64,000 nucleotides of DNA from Candidatus Saccharimonadota bacterium (lineage in GTDB: Bacteria > Patescibacteriota > Saccharimonadia > Saccharimonadales > Saccharimonadaceae): assembly GCA_017514045.1 (NCBI GenBank), contig JAFWLS010000013.1, positions 1 through 64,000 of the forward strand, read 5' to 3'. The notes under the pieces were generated by a model. It was not told the DNA's origin. It saw nothing but the letters and a program-made list of their open reading frames with translations, and searched no databases. The position numbers and the translations under genes are program-made. Numbering within the stretch: the first letter of the stretch is position 1; every line of letters begins with the position of its first letter. Shown one piece after another: positions 49,457 through 64,000 of this stretch.

Positions 49457-51088
49457 TTATTTCTTTGCGGAGGCGAAGAACTTTATGCCTTTATAAGTAT
49501 AATAATCATATCCGCCCTCTTCATTCTTAACAGTGAAATAGTTAGCGTAAAAATCGTAAACATTGACTCCGGAAATAATCATTCTGTGGTCTATAGGTGC
49601 TGTAGCATCAACAACATCATAATTATTCGATTCGCGCTTCAAAGACCATATTTCGTGATCTACTGCCACACTACGGTTATAGGCCTCCGAATAATCAAAA
49701 CCAGTTATAGGAGCGCCCTTATCATCTAAAATCGCACGTTTATTATCTTTATCATACACAACGTAACTATGGTCGTATGAATAGAATCTGCGATAGGTAA
49801 GGTCGTTCACTCGATTACCGGTAGCGTCTATTAGATAATAATTTTCACCGTCTTCAGAGACGCTAGCTAAATGGTTTTTATCGAAGAGTGAACGAATGTC
49901 GGCATAATTTCCAAAAGCAAATGAACCGTCAAGTTTATAAAACCCATACTTTCCTTCATCCTTGATAGCATATAGATCATTGTATTGCAGCAGACCACTG
50001 ACTAGACCAGCATTTTTGCTAAACGTCCTAACTATTTCTCCACGATAATATACATCCACAGCATTATCTTCATTGATGACAGCGTAATTAGCCAGATCCT
50101 TGAGAGCTAAATCAGAACTTAGTGTTTTTACTACTTCATAGTTCTCATTAAGAAGTGACAGTTCGTCATAATCGTCGAATCCTACAACGTTGTTAGAATT
50201 GCGAATCATTCCGTAATTCGTGTTGCCATTCAGGTCAAAGAGACGACCATCGTGAATGACTTTGTAGGATTCGCTGTTATCATATTCGTCGAGAAGAATG
50301 GTAGAGCGATCTTCGGAAACCGAATCAAACGAAAAGCGCTTCCCTTCGAAAGCAGATAACTGTTTCCCGGAGCGATTATCAAAAACTAGATTCCAACCGT
50401 TGTAGTAAATAAGACCAAAATCATCCTTGCTACTAAAATGCATTGTTTGGTCTTCAACGGCTTTAACTTCCGCCATTAAAACTCCAGCATAACTAAATAT
50501 ATAATAGGTATCACCAGTTTTTACTGCGCCGAATGTTGCAGTATTGCTAGGATAATCCAAGTCTAAATCATCTCCACTTAAGAGAATCTTGCCATTACCG
50601 AGCATTAAAAGTTGCGTGCCGTTATTATCGTTTACGACATATAAACCAGCTCCGTAATCCTTTATGCTTGAAATCTGCCCATAGTCAAGCATGGTTTTCC
50701 CCATGTCGTTAATCAAAGCATATTCACTTCCTTTGCGAACATATGCATATCCACCAACGAAAGAAGATTTATCGTTGTATTCCTCATCGGTTAATCGTTT
50801 ACCTTCACTATTCCAAAGAGTGTATTTACCATCATTATAAATAAAGAAGGCATTTGTATAGACAGGGCTAGATTTAGGATCACGCGGATCGGGTGTCTTA
50901 CGAAAGACAATTATAGCAACCACAATAAGTATAAGCGCTAATACTCCGCCAAGAATTCCAAAGAGTAAACTCTTGTGAGAAGATTTATCTTCCTTGACCT
51001 TTTTCTCTTTGAGATCGGGTTTACTAGGTGTCGTCTTTTGTGTTTGAGTTTTGGTTTTATCCTCCTCGGGTTTTTTCTTATCTACCAT
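49457..51088 (-). CDS. Membrane-anchored WG-repeat-like protein
   Basis: A 543-residue protein. A Lys/Pro/Thr-rich N-terminus is followed by one membrane helix (LLFGILGGVLALILIVVAII) and a long extracytoplasmic domain. The domain repeats a motif of about 40-50 residues such as YNDGKYTLWNSEGKRLTDEE, KDEGKYGFYKLDGSFAFGNY and YDKDNKRAILDDKGAPITGF, with G-[KD]-x-[GY] turns, typical of WG/beta-propeller-like repeats. The start is ATG 51088; a TACAAT -10 box (51111-51116 on this strand) and a GTGGAG Shine-Dalgarno site lie ahead of it, ruling out the longer frame. It probably serves as a surface or periplasm-like scaffold; function unknown. Confidence 0.7.
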   Translation of the reverse strand: MVDKKKPEEDKTKTQTQKTTPSKPDLKEKKVKEDKSSHKSLLFGILGGVLALILIVVAIIVFRKTPDPRDPKSSPVYTNAFFIYNDGKYTLWNSEGKRLTDEEYNDKSSFVGGYAYVRKGSEYALINDMGKTMLDYGQISSIKDYGAGLYVVNDNNGTQLLMLGNGKILLSGDDLDLDYPSNTATFGAVKTGDTYYIFSYAGVLMAEVKAVEDQTMHFSSKDDFGLIYYNGWNLVFDNRSGKQLSAFEGKRFSFDSVSEDRSTILLDEYDNSESYKVIHDGRLFDLNGNTNYGMIRNSNNVVGFDDYDELSLLNENYEVVKTLSSDLALKDLANYAVINEDNAVDVYYRGEIVRTFSKNAGLVSGLLQYNDLYAIKDEGKYGFYKLDGSFAFGNYADIRSLFDKNHLASVSEDGENYYLIDATGNRVNDLTYRRFYSYDHSYVVYDKDNKRAILDDKGAPITGFDYSEAYNRSVAVDHEIWSLKRESNNYDVVDATAPIDHRMIISGVNVYDFYANYFTVKNEEGGYDYYTYKGIKFFASAKK

Positions 51089-51189
51089 ATAAACTCCACT
51101 TATTTTCTTCATTGTATCACAAAACTTACGCACGATAAATGCACGAACCTTTCTCATCTTGACTATATACAAACAACTTATATAATATA

Positions 51190-57615: not shown

Positions 57616-58893
57616 ATGAAAGTCAAATCGAAGAAATTATCTGATACCCGTGTAGAAATCACGGTTACACTAGACAAAAACGATCTAAAATCAGCTCATG
57701 ACAAAGCAGTCGAGCGATTAGTCAAAGAAGTCAAACTCGAAGGTTTTCGTAAGGGCAAAGCCCCTAAAGATCTCGCCGAGAAAGTACTAGACCCTAATGC
57801 TGTCTCCCAAGAAGCATTAGACATCGCCGTACGAACAACTGTACCAGCAGCATTCAGCGAAGCAGAAAAAGCACCACTTGTTGTACCGAAAGTGAACGTA
57901 ACGAAATATGTGCCAGATGAATCCGTCGAATATACAGCAACCGCCGATATCTTGCCTGAAATTAAACTTGGCGATTATAAGAATCTTAAAGCCAAAAAAC
58001 AAGATGTCAAGGTCGCCAAGAAAGATATAGACGAGATAGTTGAGAATATTCGTAAGGCATATGCGGAAAAGAAAGTTGCCAAAAAGAAAGCAGAGCTCGG
58101 CGATGAAGTAATCATAGACTTTACGGGGAAGAAAGATGGCGAGTCATTTCAAGGAGGCAGTGCAAAAGATTACCATCTATCTTTAGGCTCACATAATTTC
58201 ATTCCAGGTTTTGAAGAAGGTATTGTCGGTCATGAATCTGGAGATAAGTTCGACTTACCACTTACTTTCCCGAAGGATTACCACGAAAAATCGCTCGCTG
58301 GTCAAAAAACAGTATTTGAAGTTCTCTTAAAACAAGTAAATACTGTAGAATTACCAGCACTAGATGAGAAATTCGCTAAAAAATGCGGCCCATTCAAGAA
58401 TATGGATGAGCTCCGCGCTGATATCGAAAAGAATCTTCGCGCGCAAAACGAGCATCGAGCAAACGAGAAATTTAAAGACGATCTTGTCGAAGCTCTAGTA
58501 AAATCGTCCAAAGTATCTGCACCAGAAATTTTAATCGACGATCAATTACGTCTGATTAAACTTGACATTGAGCGTAATGCATCTACTACCGGTGAGACGC
58601 TCGAGGATTATCTCAAAGCCAACAAGATGACGAAAGAAGATTGGGATAAGCAGGCTCATGACGTTGCCGAAAAACGAGTCAAAGCCTCGCTAGTGCTACA
58701 AATCCTCGCCCAACAAGCTAAAATTACTGTGTCTGACGAGGAAGTACTTGCCAAGGTAGCAGAGCTTCGTGATGTTTATAAAAAATCTCCAGAAGCATTG
58801 AAAAATCTCAAAGACCCACGCGTCAAAACGGATATCAAGAACCGCATGATTATCGAAAAAACGCTTGATTATCTCGTAAACGCTAATAAATAA
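57616..58893 (+). CDS. tig: Trigger factor
   Basis: A 425-residue ribosome-bound chaperone of normal length. The ribosome-binding domain carries the GFRKGKAPKDLAEK signature (GFRxGxxP); the central FKBP-type PPIase domain has GDEVIIDFTGKKDGESFQGG and HNFIPGFEEGIVGHESGDKF; the C-terminal chaperone domain ends RMIIEKTLDYLVNANK. It protects new chains at the ribosome exit. It has its own leaderless promoter; clpP and clpX, usual neighbours, are not in this window. Confidence 0.97.
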   Translation: MKVKSKKLSDTRVEITVTLDKNDLKSAHDKAVERLVKEVKLEGFRKGKAPKDLAEKVLDPNAVSQEALDIAVRTTVPAAFSEAEKAPLVVPKVNVTKYVPDESVEYTATADILPEIKLGDYKNLKAKKQDVKVAKKDIDEIVENIRKAYAEKKVAKKKAELGDEVIIDFTGKKDGESFQGGSAKDYHLSLGSHNFIPGFEEGIVGHESGDKFDLPLTFPKDYHEKSLAGQKTVFEVLLKQVNTVELPALDEKFAKKCGPFKNMDELRADIEKNLRAQNEHRANEKFKDDLVEALVKSSKVSAPEILIDDQLRLIKLDIERNASTTGETLEDYLKANKMTKEDWDKQAHDVAEKRVKASLVLQILAQQAKITVSDEEVLAKVAELRDVYKKSPEALKNLKDPRVKTDIKNRMIIEKTLDYLVNANK

Positions 58894-58898
58894 AAAGC

Positions 58899-58927
58899 TT
58901 TACCTTTTTCCGAACATCATATATAAT
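58899..58927 (+). promoter_or_regulatory. Promoter of the surface-protein unit, copy 1
   Basis: TTTACC (58899-58904), 17 nt, TATAAT (58922-58927), embedded in AAAAAGCTTTACCTTTTT. The same 18-nt box and spacing recur at 63841. Confidence 0.65.
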
Positions 58928-58937
58928 GAACATATAT

Positions 58938-59582
58938 ATGATGGGACAAAATAGTTTTTCTAACGCAGTTGGTGTTGCTGCCAGTGAGCAAAAACCTATT
59001 GACTTTGCGCCAGTCGATCAGGCGAGCTCATTCAACAAACCAAACACCAAAAAAATAAAACCAAAAACGATCATTCTTATTCTTATAGCTATGCTTATTG
59101 GTGCCGGTGTTACGACTGTTATATTTTTATTATTTATAAATCGCACGGTTGAAGAACCCAGTATATCGGACGTAATTGAGACTGAATCTCCAGAGAACGA
59201 CGGCACCAAAACTGCCGAACAAGTCATTGAAGAATTTAACAATGCGATTAGTAACGCAACAGACGAGAGCGACAAACTTGATCTCATGCTTAACGAAGTA
59301 GACTATTACATACTAGAAGACGACTATGATTCAGCTCTCGCTGCGCTCGGAAAAATAACCATCGACACCCTAACTAGTAGCAACAAGCAAAATGTTTACA
59401 ATCGTTATAGCACAGTATACGAAGGAAAAGGCGACAGCGAACAAGCGGCACATTATAAACAGCTCGCAGAACAAGCCTTTAACCAAGCATATCAAGGGCA
59501 ACAAGATGTAGAGATAGAGATAGAAAGCTCTGAAGGAGGTCAAGCAGAAGACGAATCGTCGAATAGCGGAGAGGAGGAATAG
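58938..59582 (+). CDS. Membrane protein of the surface-protein unit
   Basis: A 214-residue protein starting MMGQNSFSN. A polar N-terminus of about 45 residues and one membrane helix (IILILIAMLIGAGVTTVIFLLF) are followed by an acidic extracytoplasmic helical domain with TPR-like pairs (LDLMLNEVDYYILEDDYDSA; NVYNRYSTVYEGKGDSEQAA) and an acidic Glu/Ser tail. The homologous start at 63878 (MMGQN) and the position of TATAAT favour ATG 58938 or 58941 over 58926. It is 4 nt before the 1413-residue gene, so the pair is one unit. It may chaperone or anchor the large partner; this is inference. Confidence 0.65.
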   Translation: MMGQNSFSNAVGVAASEQKPIDFAPVDQASSFNKPNTKKIKPKTIILILIAMLIGAGVTTVIFLLFINRTVEEPSISDVIETESPENDGTKTAEQVIEEFNNAISNATDESDKLDLMLNEVDYYILEDDYDSALAALGKITIDTLTSSNKQNVYNRYSTVYEGKGDSEQAAHYKQLAEQAFNQAYQGQQDVEIEIESSEGGQAEDESSNSGEEE

Positions 59583-59586
59583 CTAT

Positions 59587-62500
59587 ATGGCAACAGTAAC
59601 TGACTATAACATAGAACAGCCATCCAGAGGCTTTGCCGTCTCGTTATTAGTGATTGTGATATTTGCATTTTCTATCGTCGCCAATCTGCTCATCGCAAGC
59701 AAAACTGCATACGGTGGAGGTGGGGCGAATGCAGGGATTGTAGATATACAACCCGTTAAGCCATGCCCGTCAGGACAAAACTGCTCAGGGAGTTCATCCC
59801 ATGTTGCCCCATACTGGGTGTATTTCAGAATTAAAAACAACAAGAAAACCTCCTTTAATGTTGCCGGAGAAACCGTATCTGGTTGCAATGGTGCCGGAGG
59901 GTTCTACTTCGAATTTAACGAATCCCTTTCTGGCGCACAATCTAGCGTAATGAATGCGCAAACATCAAGAATGTACTACATCGACCATCGAGCCAAAAAG
60001 ACCGTACCGACCAACAAATACAACGCTAACGATCTAGAACCAATCTACCTCACCTTCCACTCAGACGGCAAAGATTATTCAAGCAAAGGAGAAGTCAATA
60101 TCTGCAGTCTCACTTCGCCAAGGAAAACAATAAATAAATATAACGCCCAAAGCGGGTATAAAATACAGACGCTCAATGTCGGAGATTCAAGACTAAAAGA
60201 TAAGTGTAACTATAATCGAGACTGGGGAACTGGCTTTAAAGATTCGAGTAGAAATGGCGAACAAATCTGCAAAGGTGGATCACTCTGTATATGGTACAAC
60301 ATAGAAAGCGATATCGTATCCTATATCGTCGACCAATGGAATAATATGATAAAGGATAATGAGAACGCCGGAGACCTACGCGGTAAAAAAATCTGGGACA
60401 CGCAGACAAATGGTGACCCAGGAAACGTAGTGAACGTTGTCTGGTTCTGCGGCGGAGTGGGGAGTGGTAACTACACCGGCACAACCACAGGAAAAATTGG
60501 TGACAAGAGTGCATCCGTAACGACATCTGGCACCAAGAGTTTGTCATACGACGGTACTAAAACCGACGGTAAATACACCATCAACTTTGAACACTTGCTA
60601 AAACGCACCGATAACGCCAACAGCTCCATCCCAACCCAAACAGTCAAAATCATCACATCGACAACCAATCTCAGCACCAACAAGACAACCACCAAAACCG
60701 AAGAGATAAATATAGCATTAGAAAAGAAAGGCACTACTGGTAAAGATTCCGTTACGACGAAGAGGAGCGAGAGCCTAACGCTTTCGCCTGGGCAAAAGGT
60801 TAAGGTTTGTCAGACTATGCAGTACTACAGCTTTGTCGACTATAGCTTTGAGAGCGGAAATTTCCTAACCAACTCCAGCAATTTAAAGAAAACCACCGTC
60901 TGCGTCACCGTCACCCAGCCTATTTATCTTGAACCAGGTTCAGCCTCGTATGTCACTAATAGCGTTAACAATAACAACAACTCTCCCGTCACGACAGGCG
61001 GTAATAATACCATACAAGGTCTTGCCGGGTCTAAAGGCGGTAATAAAACCTACTCCTATACCTTCACACACAAACTCAAACTACAAGGAAAAACCGGTTA
61101 TTCTTACGGCATTCAATACTATATTGTACAAACCAAAGACGGAACAAATGAGACCATTCCAGATAGTGGCACGCAATCAAGTCCCAAAACACTTTCGGTA
61201 AACAGCGCGGATGGTCATTATGTTCAGGCATTCACGAGCAGAGGCTCATGGGACCCAATTGCTCCGGGCGAACAAACCCCCACCATCTGTCAGACTATCT
61301 ACTTTAAGCCCAAACAGATATCTGCTGGCAGCAGCTATACAATTACAAAAGACACCTGGCAATCATCCACTGTTTGTACTAATGTCAAACGCAGTGCACC
61401 CAAAAAGATTTCTGCTTCAGCCACGTCCGACGTAACGGTCAATGGGGTTAAGAACCCATCTGGTACTCAAATCTCAGTGGATCCATATAGTATCACATTC
61501 GCATTCAAACTAACCACCCCAAACAGTCGTGCGTTAACCACTAATTATTCTATCCAGCGGTTAATTTACAACACTGGAGGAACAAAGAATTGGAATGATG
61601 CAACTACCGTTAAAGGCCCAACCTCTATCTCGGCCCCGGCCAATGTCACGGACTCGTTCAAGAAGGCTACCGAAGACGGTCAAGCGCTAACCGTCTGCGA
61701 ACGTATTGTTCTAGATCCATATCAATACTACATCGAATACAAAGGCGATGGGAAGACGGAAGATGGACTCACGTCGTTAAGTGGTAGTAAAGCTTTCGCA
61801 GAAAGGTGTGTAGACTTAGGGCGTCCACAAAAGCAAAAGTACAATGACGGAGAAGCTATCATCTATTCATCGTCTGAAGGCAGACTCGACAATAGTGTCT
61901 ACGACGCTACTCAGGGGGCATATATTCTCAAGAACAATAACACTATCATCTATACCCATAAGCTCTGGCGTAAGGCAGAAAAACACACCATAAGTGGCAA
62001 AAACGCCACCAGTCCAGCAGAAGACGTCAATGTCGAATATCGTCTCGATGATCCAAATGCATCATACAATTCCACCTCTATCCGCCAAGGAACTGGAACA
62101 GCTAATGGCCTACCAAGCATCACAGTACCTACCAACTCAGAATCGCAGAAACGAACAACGACTAGTAATCGGAATTCCTCACTTCTAAACGCCAACACCG
62201 TTATAGACGAAAGCAAATTGTTAGTAGGGCAAAAAAAGACGTTTTGCCAATCCATATTCTTCGTCTCTAAACAGTACACGCTAAGAGGCGAATACTATTC
62301 GCTTAATGGGCAACTCTGGAGTAACACGATGCTAGGCGTAGAGAGGCCTGTCTCTAAGAACGTTGTCGGCAAATCATCACCTGGCTGCGTTAGTGTCATC
62401 CGTCCATACAACTTCAAAGTTACGGAAATTTCTGTAAATAGCTCCCCAGAGACCGTAACTGGAGAAGGCGAAGTCGACGTCAGTTTTACAATCGACGTTG

Positions 62501-63828
62501 CTAAGAATGACGGCGCTGGTGACTACAAGATTACCGACATTCCAAACGCCAAGATTCAAGTCATCAAAATTACGTTGACTCAGCCACTGAGCCCAGGTGA
62601 TTCCACCGCCGGCGGAATTGCTACTGATCCATGCCAACACTTCACGAGTCGCCTTGGGGCAAAAGCTAGATGCGAATTCGATAGCCCAGCCGACACTAAG
62701 ACTATTAGTCCGGGTTCACCTAATAGCAGTAGCAGCGTTAGCTATTACAATAGCAACGGATATGCTTCGGTCTACACTGCTCACCCTAGTATAAACGAAG
62801 TACCTACTACTTATAAGGTGTGCTATGCTATAGCAATCAATCCGGCCAGTAGTGGCAGCAAAGGCTATGGTTTAAGTGCAGGAGACTTCGATACGGGTAG
62901 ATGGGTCATCAGTAACGCTGCTTGTATAAACATCGGCAAACGTCCAACCGTACAAGTTTGGGGTGGATCCGTCTTCTCATCTGGAGGTATCCATACTGCA
63001 TCATCTCGAGCAAAAGTAAACAACGAATCACAGAATCGCGTCTTTGGTTCATGGGCTGACTACATGATTATCGCAAATGGTGCTAATAAGAATATGGCAT
63101 CTGGAGCTACTCTTATCTCTGGTATGCTTAACGCTACTACTTGTAAATATTCTCCACTCACTATCGCTAATTCCAAATGTAATGCGGACACAAAGGAGCT
63201 TGGAAGGGCCGCTATTGAATCTGCCCAATCCCTAGAAAGAGGCGTCTACGAGTACTATCTCAAAAACAGTAAAGACAAATATCTCGACCTCAAAACGATC
63301 GGACTCGAAGGCGGATCGCACATTGTAGACAGAAATACGCTAAACGATGCTTCTGGCACTTATCCAATCCTCATCTACAACAATGATGGCGCTCATTCAA
63401 ACCTCTACATTAAAGAAGATATTAACGTTGGTTTCTCTGGACGTTCTTATAACGACATCAATATACCACAAGTCATCATATACTCTCCTGGTAACATCTA
63501 TATAGCCCCACAAGTGACCCGCATCGATGCTTGGATAATTGCAGGGGGAGAGATCCGAACTTGCGCCGAAGCAAATGGTACGGTAATTCGCACCCAACAA
63601 GGTCGCGTCGATGAATGCGATAAAAAACTTACTATCACAGGGCCAATCTATGCAAAGAAGATTCTCCTCGATCGTATCGCTAACGGTGATGTCAGCAAGA
63701 ACACCACTGCTGAACCAGCCGAACTTATCGATCTCAACCCGGCCATTTACTTGTTCGGCTATAACGAATCTACCAACAATGCGCAGCCTTCTGTAACCTA
63801 CATGCATAAATTACCGGTAAGATATTAA
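59587..63828 (+). CDS. Giant repeat-built surface protein
   Basis: A 1413-residue protein. A short N-terminus is followed by one membrane segment (FAVSLLVIVIFAFSIVANLLIA) and a very long Ser/Thr/Asn/Gly-rich extracytoplasmic region. At least five related modules of about 140-200 residues are visible, each with a G-x-x-x-x-[VI]-C block and a second Cys after about 40 residues: KVKVCQTMQYYSF (about residue 400), TPTICQTIYFKPKQ (560), LTVCERIVLDPYQYY (700), KKTFCQSIFFVSKQ (880) and TYKVCYAIAINP (1073). Partner Cys appear in TTVCVTV, STVCTNV, AERCVDL, PGCVSVI and AACINIG. A separate C-terminal domain (from about 1150: GSWADYMIIANGANKN; IIYSPGNIYIAPQVTRIDAW) differs. An AGGAGG site precedes the ATG. 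It probably acts as adhesin or outer scaffold. Confidence 0.72.
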   Translation: MATVTDYNIEQPSRGFAVSLLVIVIFAFSIVANLLIASKTAYGGGGANAGIVDIQPVKPCPSGQNCSGSSSHVAPYWVYFRIKNNKKTSFNVAGETVSGCNGAGGFYFEFNESLSGAQSSVMNAQTSRMYYIDHRAKKTVPTNKYNANDLEPIYLTFHSDGKDYSSKGEVNICSLTSPRKTINKYNAQSGYKIQTLNVGDSRLKDKCNYNRDWGTGFKDSSRNGEQICKGGSLCIWYNIESDIVSYIVDQWNNMIKDNENAGDLRGKKIWDTQTNGDPGNVVNVVWFCGGVGSGNYTGTTTGKIGDKSASVTTSGTKSLSYDGTKTDGKYTINFEHLLKRTDNANSSIPTQTVKIITSTTNLSTNKTTTKTEEINIALEKKGTTGKDSVTTKRSESLTLSPGQKVKVCQTMQYYSFVDYSFESGNFLTNSSNLKKTTVCVTVTQPIYLEPGSASYVTNSVNNNNNSPVTTGGNNTIQGLAGSKGGNKTYSYTFTHKLKLQGKTGYSYGIQYYIVQTKDGTNETIPDSGTQSSPKTLSVNSADGHYVQAFTSRGSWDPIAPGEQTPTICQTIYFKPKQISAGSSYTITKDTWQSSTVCTNVKRSAPKKISASATSDVTVNGVKNPSGTQISVDPYSITFAFKLTTPNSRALTTNYSIQRLIYNTGGTKNWNDATTVKGPTSISAPANVTDSFKKATEDGQALTVCERIVLDPYQYYIEYKGDGKTEDGLTSLSGSKAFAERCVDLGRPQKQKYNDGEAIIYSSSEGRLDNSVYDATQGAYILKNNNTIIYTHKLWRKAEKHTISGKNATSPAEDVNVEYRLDDPNASYNSTSIRQGTGTANGLPSITVPTNSESQKRTTTSNRNSSLLNANTVIDESKLLVGQKKTFCQSIFFVSKQYTLRGEYYSLNGQLWSNTMLGVERPVSKNVVGKSSPGCVSVIRPYNFKVTEISVNSSPETVTGEGEVDVSFTIDVAKNDGAGDYKITDIPNAKIQVIKITLTQPLSPGDSTAGGIATDPCQHFTSRLGAKARCEFDSPADTKTISPGSPNSSSSVSYYNSNGYASVYTAHPSINEVPTTYKVCYAIAINPASSGSKGYGLSAGDFDTGRWVISNAACINIGKRPTVQVWGGSVFSSGGIHTASSRAKVNNESQNRVFGSWADYMIIANGANKNMASGATLISGMLNATTCKYSPLTIANSKCNADTKELGRAAIESAQSLERGVYEYYLKNSKDKYLDLKTIGLEGGSHIVDRNTLNDASGTYPILIYNNDGAHSNLYIKEDINVGFSGRSYNDINIPQVIIYSPGNIYIAPQVTRIDAWIIAGGEIRTCAEANGTVIRTQQGRVDECDKKLTITGPIYAKKILLDRIANGDVSKNTTAEPAELIDLNPAIYLFGYNESTNNAQPSVTYMHKLPVRY

Positions 63829-63840
63829 TAACAAAAAAGC

Positions 63841-63869
63841 TTTACCTTTTTATTTATTAAATATATAAT
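63841..63869 (+). promoter_or_regulatory. Promoter of the surface-protein unit, copy 2
   Basis: TTTACC (63841-63846), 17 nt, TATAAT (63864-63869), in the same AAAAAAGCTTTACCTTTTT box as copy 1. Confidence 0.65.
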
Positions 63870-63877
63870 GGAAACAT

Positions 63878-64000
63878 ATGATGGGACAAAACAATATTTC
63901 TGACACAACCAACTCAATAGCCAATGGGCAAGGATTAACAAACCCAACGCCTATTGATCGGCCCAGTGCGTCACGGTTAAAATTCCCACTAAAAGGTGTT
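63878..64000 (+). CDS. Second copy of the unit's membrane protein, 3' end outside window
   Basis: The frame opens MMGQNNISDTTNSIANGQ and runs to the window end without a stop. The start, the promoter and the first residues repeat the 58938 gene (MMGQNSFSN), so a tandem array of such units appears to begin here. Only 41 codons are visible. Confidence 0.6.
   Translation, partial: MMGQNNISDTTNSIANGQGLTNPTPIDRPSASRLKFPLKGV

Follow-up and report, generated by a model that had tools for sequence, protein, structure and literature searches.

The analysed stretch, called the window below, comprised bases 1–64000 of a 102 kb contig from an 845 kb genome in 24 contigs. At its 3′ end, and continuing on the contig, the gene order is tig–A1–B–A2–rpsL–rpsG. 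The left flank (57616–58893, plus strand, from the ORF list) was assigned from its sequence as tig, the gene for trigger factor; of 60 genus genomes searched, 58 had an orthologue. Among named tig sequences, the closest came from uncultured ruminant-gut Saccharibacteria (85 % identity, water buffalo rumen; 81 %, jejunum and ileum of sheep), the tig of Ca. Nanosyncoccus alces was 66 % identical, and same-genus genomes spanned 57–85 %. From these identities we infer a Nanosyncoccus-like genome, and the genus is named on that footing.

Directly 3′ of the tig stop codon lies an 18-nt box (58892–58909, plus strand, like all features described here up to A2) containing a −35 hexamer, TTTACC (58899–58904), which is followed after 17 nt by a −10 hexamer, TATAAT (58922–58927), 10 nt 5′ of the near-leaderless A1 start. 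A1 (58938–59582, 214 codons) encodes a protein with a disordered N-terminal tail beginning MMGQNSFSN, one transmembrane (TM) helix and a predicted outward TPR-like domain; an alternative longer frame from 58926 would begin inside the −10 region. B (59587–63828, 1413 aa) is predicted to be secreted, with an N-terminal hydrophobic segment from residue 17, and its conserved C-terminal region (residues 1061–1413; 62767–63825) ends in LPVRY. Since B is preceded by a strong ribosome-binding site (GGAGAGGAGG) and starts 4 nt 3′ of the A1 stop, the two genes are probably carried on one transcript. A second copy of the box (63834–63851; TTTACC at 63841–63846) is found 5 nt 3′ of the B stop, with its TATAAT (63864–63869) 8 nt 5′ of A2. 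A2, an intact 183-aa paralogue of A1, occupies 63878–64000 of the window and stops beyond it, at contig position 64429; rpsL follows outside the window, from 64557.

The original prediction, of an 18-nt box, a 17-nt spacer to TATAAT and an MMGQN start (58938 and 63878) repeated 4.94 kb apart around a single-pass membrane protein and a 1413-residue repeat protein, was borne out in most parts. A1 has a single TM helix, and the two copies of the box (AAAAAGCTTTACCTTTTT) are exact and lie 4942 nt apart. The 17-nt spacer holds if counted from TTTACC inside the box; from the box end it is 12 nt in both copies. The length of B stands, and the word repeat fits it poorly: a blastp self-comparison of B showed no off-diagonal match at E≤50, and only five loose Cys-containing motifs were seen.

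Allowing up to three mismatches, only these two boxes were found in the window (shuffled sequences gave a mean of 0.25, and 5 of 100 reached two), and four, two of them exact, in the whole genome. A1 and A2 are identical at only 79 of 183 residues and equal at 12 of 27 fourfold-degenerate sites of their shared codons, while the box is preserved at 18 of 18 positions, so its identity goes beyond chance. The element TTTACCTTTTT-N12-TATAAT also stands upstream of the orthologous post-tig A gene in three sister genomes (G254, G262 and G300), as in both copies here; G179 has the version TTTACCATTTT, and the versions in G152 and G167 have diverged. Exact TTTACCTTTTT-N(10–14)-TATAAT gave 11 matches in 9 of 174 genus genomes (reversed control, 4). 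All five matches in this genome (G000), G254, G262 and G300 sit at the post-tig A gene and nowhere else in these genomes; the other six, from five other genomes, lie before a 498-aa gene (two), before two other genes singly, and before no clear gene (two). Judged from these sequences, the box is not simply duplicated DNA but a putative A-specific promoter kept across sister species. The predicted duplication of a gene together with its promoter was upheld, one gene having truly been copied along with its promoter. A reading of the box as a weak terminator of the upstream gene, the copies being identical through duplication only, is suggested by its place directly after a stop codon at both sites and by its ability to form a six-pair hairpin. 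This reading was rejected as highly improbable because the hairpin is nearly unstable (−0.5 kcal mol−1 alone); what is conserved across species, moreover, is TTTACC, a T-run and the −10 at fixed spacing and not the 5′ arm of the hairpin. Near-leaderless starts are ordinary in this DNA, TATAAT being found 3–14 nt before the start in 11 of the 50 window ORFs of at least 150 codons.

By codon position 1, 2 and 3, A1 and A2 are identical at 98, 117 and 74 of 183 codons, as expected for two coding genes; this pattern and the intact frame argue that A2 is no relic. The original prediction would have fallen with a second copy that was a short relic lacking a large partner gene: the large partner is indeed missing and the copy is whole. 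A second unit of anchor plus giant protein past the window end was rejected, A2 being followed by rpsL and a whole-genome search giving no match to a second B at E≤1; the pairing of a membrane protein with a giant surface-type protein was supported by A1 and B. No further clear A paralogue was found in this genome; seven more matches to the A profile (E 2.8e-6 to 0.04) span little beyond the TM part and were not counted as A.

An expandable array of such units, varying by recombination or phase switching, was also envisaged. Some support comes from relatives and from the duplication of A with its promoter. The order A–B–A–B was read in L107 (4154–12616, immediately followed by three pseudopilin genes) and in L224, a relative of the same genus (8439 onward), and nearly so in L225, in which the first small gene was unmatched by the A profile; two B genes occurred in 4 of 40 relative loci. 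Never more than two B units were seen, however, and such an array would hold at least two giant genes or silent cassettes, of which this genome offers one B. B has no further copy here with which it could recombine, and phase variation finds no long switchable tract, the longest homopolymer in the region being 7 A and the tandem repeats all short. The array is hence an improbable account of this locus (A1–B–A2, one giant) and survives in a limited, two-unit form in a few relatives. In the loci L091, L108 and L110, pilM is preceded by two B-type genes in close proximity, which a small gene may or may not separate.

Among the tig-locus relatives read, A–B was found in G152, G262 and G167, and A, another small gene and then B in G179 and G300; in G254 the contig ends inside a long gene after A, and B is unconfirmed there. 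A on both sides of B was seen in this genome only. In a 15-row tree, A1 and A2 fall inside a seven-row tig-locus clade (support 100/99), with G167 just outside, separate from the A genes of pseudopilin loci; the tree leaves the branching order of A1 and A2, as sisters or not, unsettled. An HMM of A that was iterated three times came to match major pilins, with which A has the TM helix in common. Raw match numbers were therefore not used, and genes in gene strings were labelled A only where length, single TM helix, position or the 15-row tree agreed. Labelled in this manner, three A-type genes lie inside the pseudopilin cluster of the sister clade, as A–A–A–psp1–psp3 in G152, G254 and G300 (L211:6845–8492; L213:8357–10066; L215:7836–9528), and G262 (L217) has A–A–A–B–A–psp1–psp3. 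The corresponding spot in this genome is a gap of ∼140 nt (L249:7017–7156) without A. In G134, G158, G220 and G227, A adjoins rpsL–rpsG and the pseudopilin genes come just after, which suggests that the tig–rpsL site of A–B is a remnant of a once joined pseudopilin neighbourhood.

The structure model of A shows one TM helix at residues 42–67 and a helical domain at 93–192 (pLDDT mostly ∼98). Its best structural match had Z 14.0, with TPR/PCI folds throughout the matches, a value within the loose-matching range, since the TPR fold is an unspecific one and high scores come easily to helical repeats. Pfam TPR_2 and TPR_16 each matched 5 of 28 A members, A1 itself remaining below the Pfam cut-offs. 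A is predicted to have a tail at its N terminus, a single TM helix and a TPR-like domain that faces outward.

The C-terminal part of B (the last ∼340 residues) was found in 97 of 151 family genomes, representing 42 of 61 genera, and usually within a large frame. An alignment of 25 such regions contained 13 invariant columns. B is 42 % identical to its counterpart in the sister species, tig and rpsL being 85 % and 99 % identical in the same comparison. Such rapid divergence would be expected of a protein in contact with the host, although it can also have other causes. The N terminus was scored by simple custom patterns, without a signal-peptide predictor, on 58 complete B proteins, a count that leaves out frames running off the end of a contig or stretch, those below 450 codons and three loci repeating contigs already sampled. 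All 58 had a hydrophobic N terminus, followed in 50 by a small-x-A motif, and none of the 58 had the class III prepilin pattern. In two relatives (L094:7965–10262 and L105:7802–10102), a VWA-like match with a DxSxS-type motif, under the Pfam cut-off, lies just after the signal of B.

Residues 1061–1413 of B were modelled with moderate confidence (mean pLDDT 71, pTM 0.75). Residues 59–336 of the model resemble the β-solenoids of DUF3494 proteins and of ComZ. Foldseek placed the DUF3494 ice-binding solenoids and ComZ at the top with weak values (E 0.0055 and 0.0075–0.025). In VIA-align, which gave a second look at the Foldseek rows only, DUF3494 proteins reached Z 11.4 and ComZ Z 9.6 (186 aligned residues, rmsd 4.1), and the next row of another kind had only Z 5.1. 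A profile of the 25 C-terminal regions matched no PDB sequence at E≤1, and no sequence match linked B to ComZ, PilY1 or any Pfam or NCBIfam family. In 18 B proteins there was no match at E≤0.1 to PF05567, the C-terminal PilY1/PilC β-propeller domain, or to PF11999, the DUF3494 family profile. A PHROGs search found nothing. Literature searches did not turn up the B family, which may nevertheless be listed under a locus tag in published supplements.

Forty relative B loci from 39 genomes, chosen by score and variety and not at random, were read for their neighbourhood. pilM lay at most three genes downstream of B in 24 of them and pseudopilins in four others, and 12 had no type IV pilus (T4P) gene near B. 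Of the 41 B genes whose upstream gene could be read, 30 had a small one-TM protein encoded directly upstream on the same strand; among other ORFs of the same loci, 144 of 565 were small single-TM proteins. The reference PilM scored above the curated cut-offs of PF11104 and TIGR01175. pilN and pilO were called by position and resemblance, and the pilN, pilO and pseudopilin labels rest mostly on gene order, profile matches being weak or absent. This genome has pilM, pilB, pilT, pilC, pilD and a pseudopilin cluster; they lie on other contigs, which carry neither A nor B there, so that A–B is not beside T4P genes here. The T4P contig encodes a PilM that exceeds the cut-off, an MshEN-bearing ATPase and a second T2SSE ATPase (labelled pilB and pilT from their size and position), as well as PilC and a prepilin peptidase. 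The larger result is a pair that is widespread, lacks a family model and, in the loci read, usually has T4P genes as neighbours.

Several known systems resemble B in part. PilY1, which is mentioned in PMC12206443, is a T4P tip adhesin, a large Sec-secreted non-pilin encoded with T4P genes. B shares with it the Sec-type N terminus without a prepilin pattern, the size and the T4P neighbourhood, as well as the VWA-like match in two relatives, under the Pfam cut-off; it differs in having no β-propeller family match and another C-terminal domain. The DUF3494 ice-binding proteins have the same type of β-solenoid by structure comparison, but they have no Pfam match in the 18 B proteins, and ice binding is not expected of a gut bacterium. 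ComZ, the T4P tip pilin of Thermus thermophilus, shares both a β-solenoid of the ice-binding-protein kind and the T4P link. It is described as a large β-solenoid with FfIBP as its nearest fold, its gene lies beside minor pilins, and a place at the pilus tip is argued for it (PMC6561018). ComZ is pilin-like, of ∼500 residues and with an inserted solenoid, whereas B has a Sec-type N terminus, mostly 600–1800 residues and a solenoid at the very C terminus; the two have no detectable sequence match. As to a pilin-like fold around the solenoid, the 58 B proteins show no prepilin pattern, but ComZ itself is reported to have been missed by PilFind (PMC6561018). PilX1 and PilX2 of Nanosynbacter lyticus TM7x are saccharibacterial and T4P-linked, carry extra C-terminal domains and have no predicted PilD site, features that B shares when compared by description only. 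They are presented as minor pilins of the lollipop type whose extra domain is jelly-roll-like or a propeller; deletion of pilX2 is reported to lower host binding, and PilX2 is proposed as a tip-type protein for one of the two pili of TM7x (PMC12206443). B is far larger than either.

We slightly favour the view that A–B is a T4P-linked accessory pair of Saccharibacteria, in which the partner gene has here been duplicated with its promoter to give A1–B–A2. B would be a Sec-secreted giant with a variable N-terminal part reaching outward and a conserved C-terminal β-solenoid that docks it to the pilus or pilus base. A would be anchored by its single helix, leaving a short tail in the cytoplasm and, outside the membrane, a TPR-like domain that may bind B (or the pilus machinery) while assembly takes place. 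A single near-leaderless transcript would probably serve both A1 and B, whereas A2 would be expressed from a copy of this A-specific promoter of its own and might thereby provide more, or more varied, partner for each B.

Another account would make A–B a general cell-surface or wall-associated pair, a structural coat or wall-synthesis regulator that is merely near T4P genes, with A resembling the activators LpoA and LpoP. These lipoproteins also carry TPR-like domains outside the membrane, and the helical domain of A matches both, among many others; the position of A–B between tig and rpsL, away from the T4P genes, and the 12 loci without T4P neighbours of B fit this account as well. We consider it unlikely, as B stands repeatedly right before pilM–pilN–pilO or pseudopilins, A-type genes lie inside pseudopilin clusters and the solenoid of B resembles that of ComZ.

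For the favoured T4P-linked pair, host contact would be the most economical role, since T4P are reported to serve host binding in a cultured member of the lineage (PMC12206443); the gene order of the relatives and the fold make it plausible. The question touched is how episymbiotic Saccharibacteria recognise and hold host bacteria, and a family without a Pfam or NCBIfam model that is this widely distributed and encoded mostly against pilM or pseudopilins is a concrete, removable candidate for the host grip. More tentatively, and with well under even credence, B may be the missing T4P tip adhesin of most Saccharibacteria in the family: a secreted giant replacing PilY1, seated on the pilus by its ComZ-like solenoid and escorted by dedicated membrane TPR partners (A), with an outer part that evolves fast to fit the host bacterium and A–B units that double and move as cassettes.

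Two minor observations concern genes outside the pair. The TTTACCTTTTT...TATAAT promoter precedes the 498-aa gene (MAKKLSG...) in the genus members L250 and L258. On the minus strand of the window, 49457–51172 encodes a large one-TM protein with a charged N-terminal tail that matches the A profile only around the TM helix, and a similar-looking gene lies near the A locus of G254 (L214:11235–12869).
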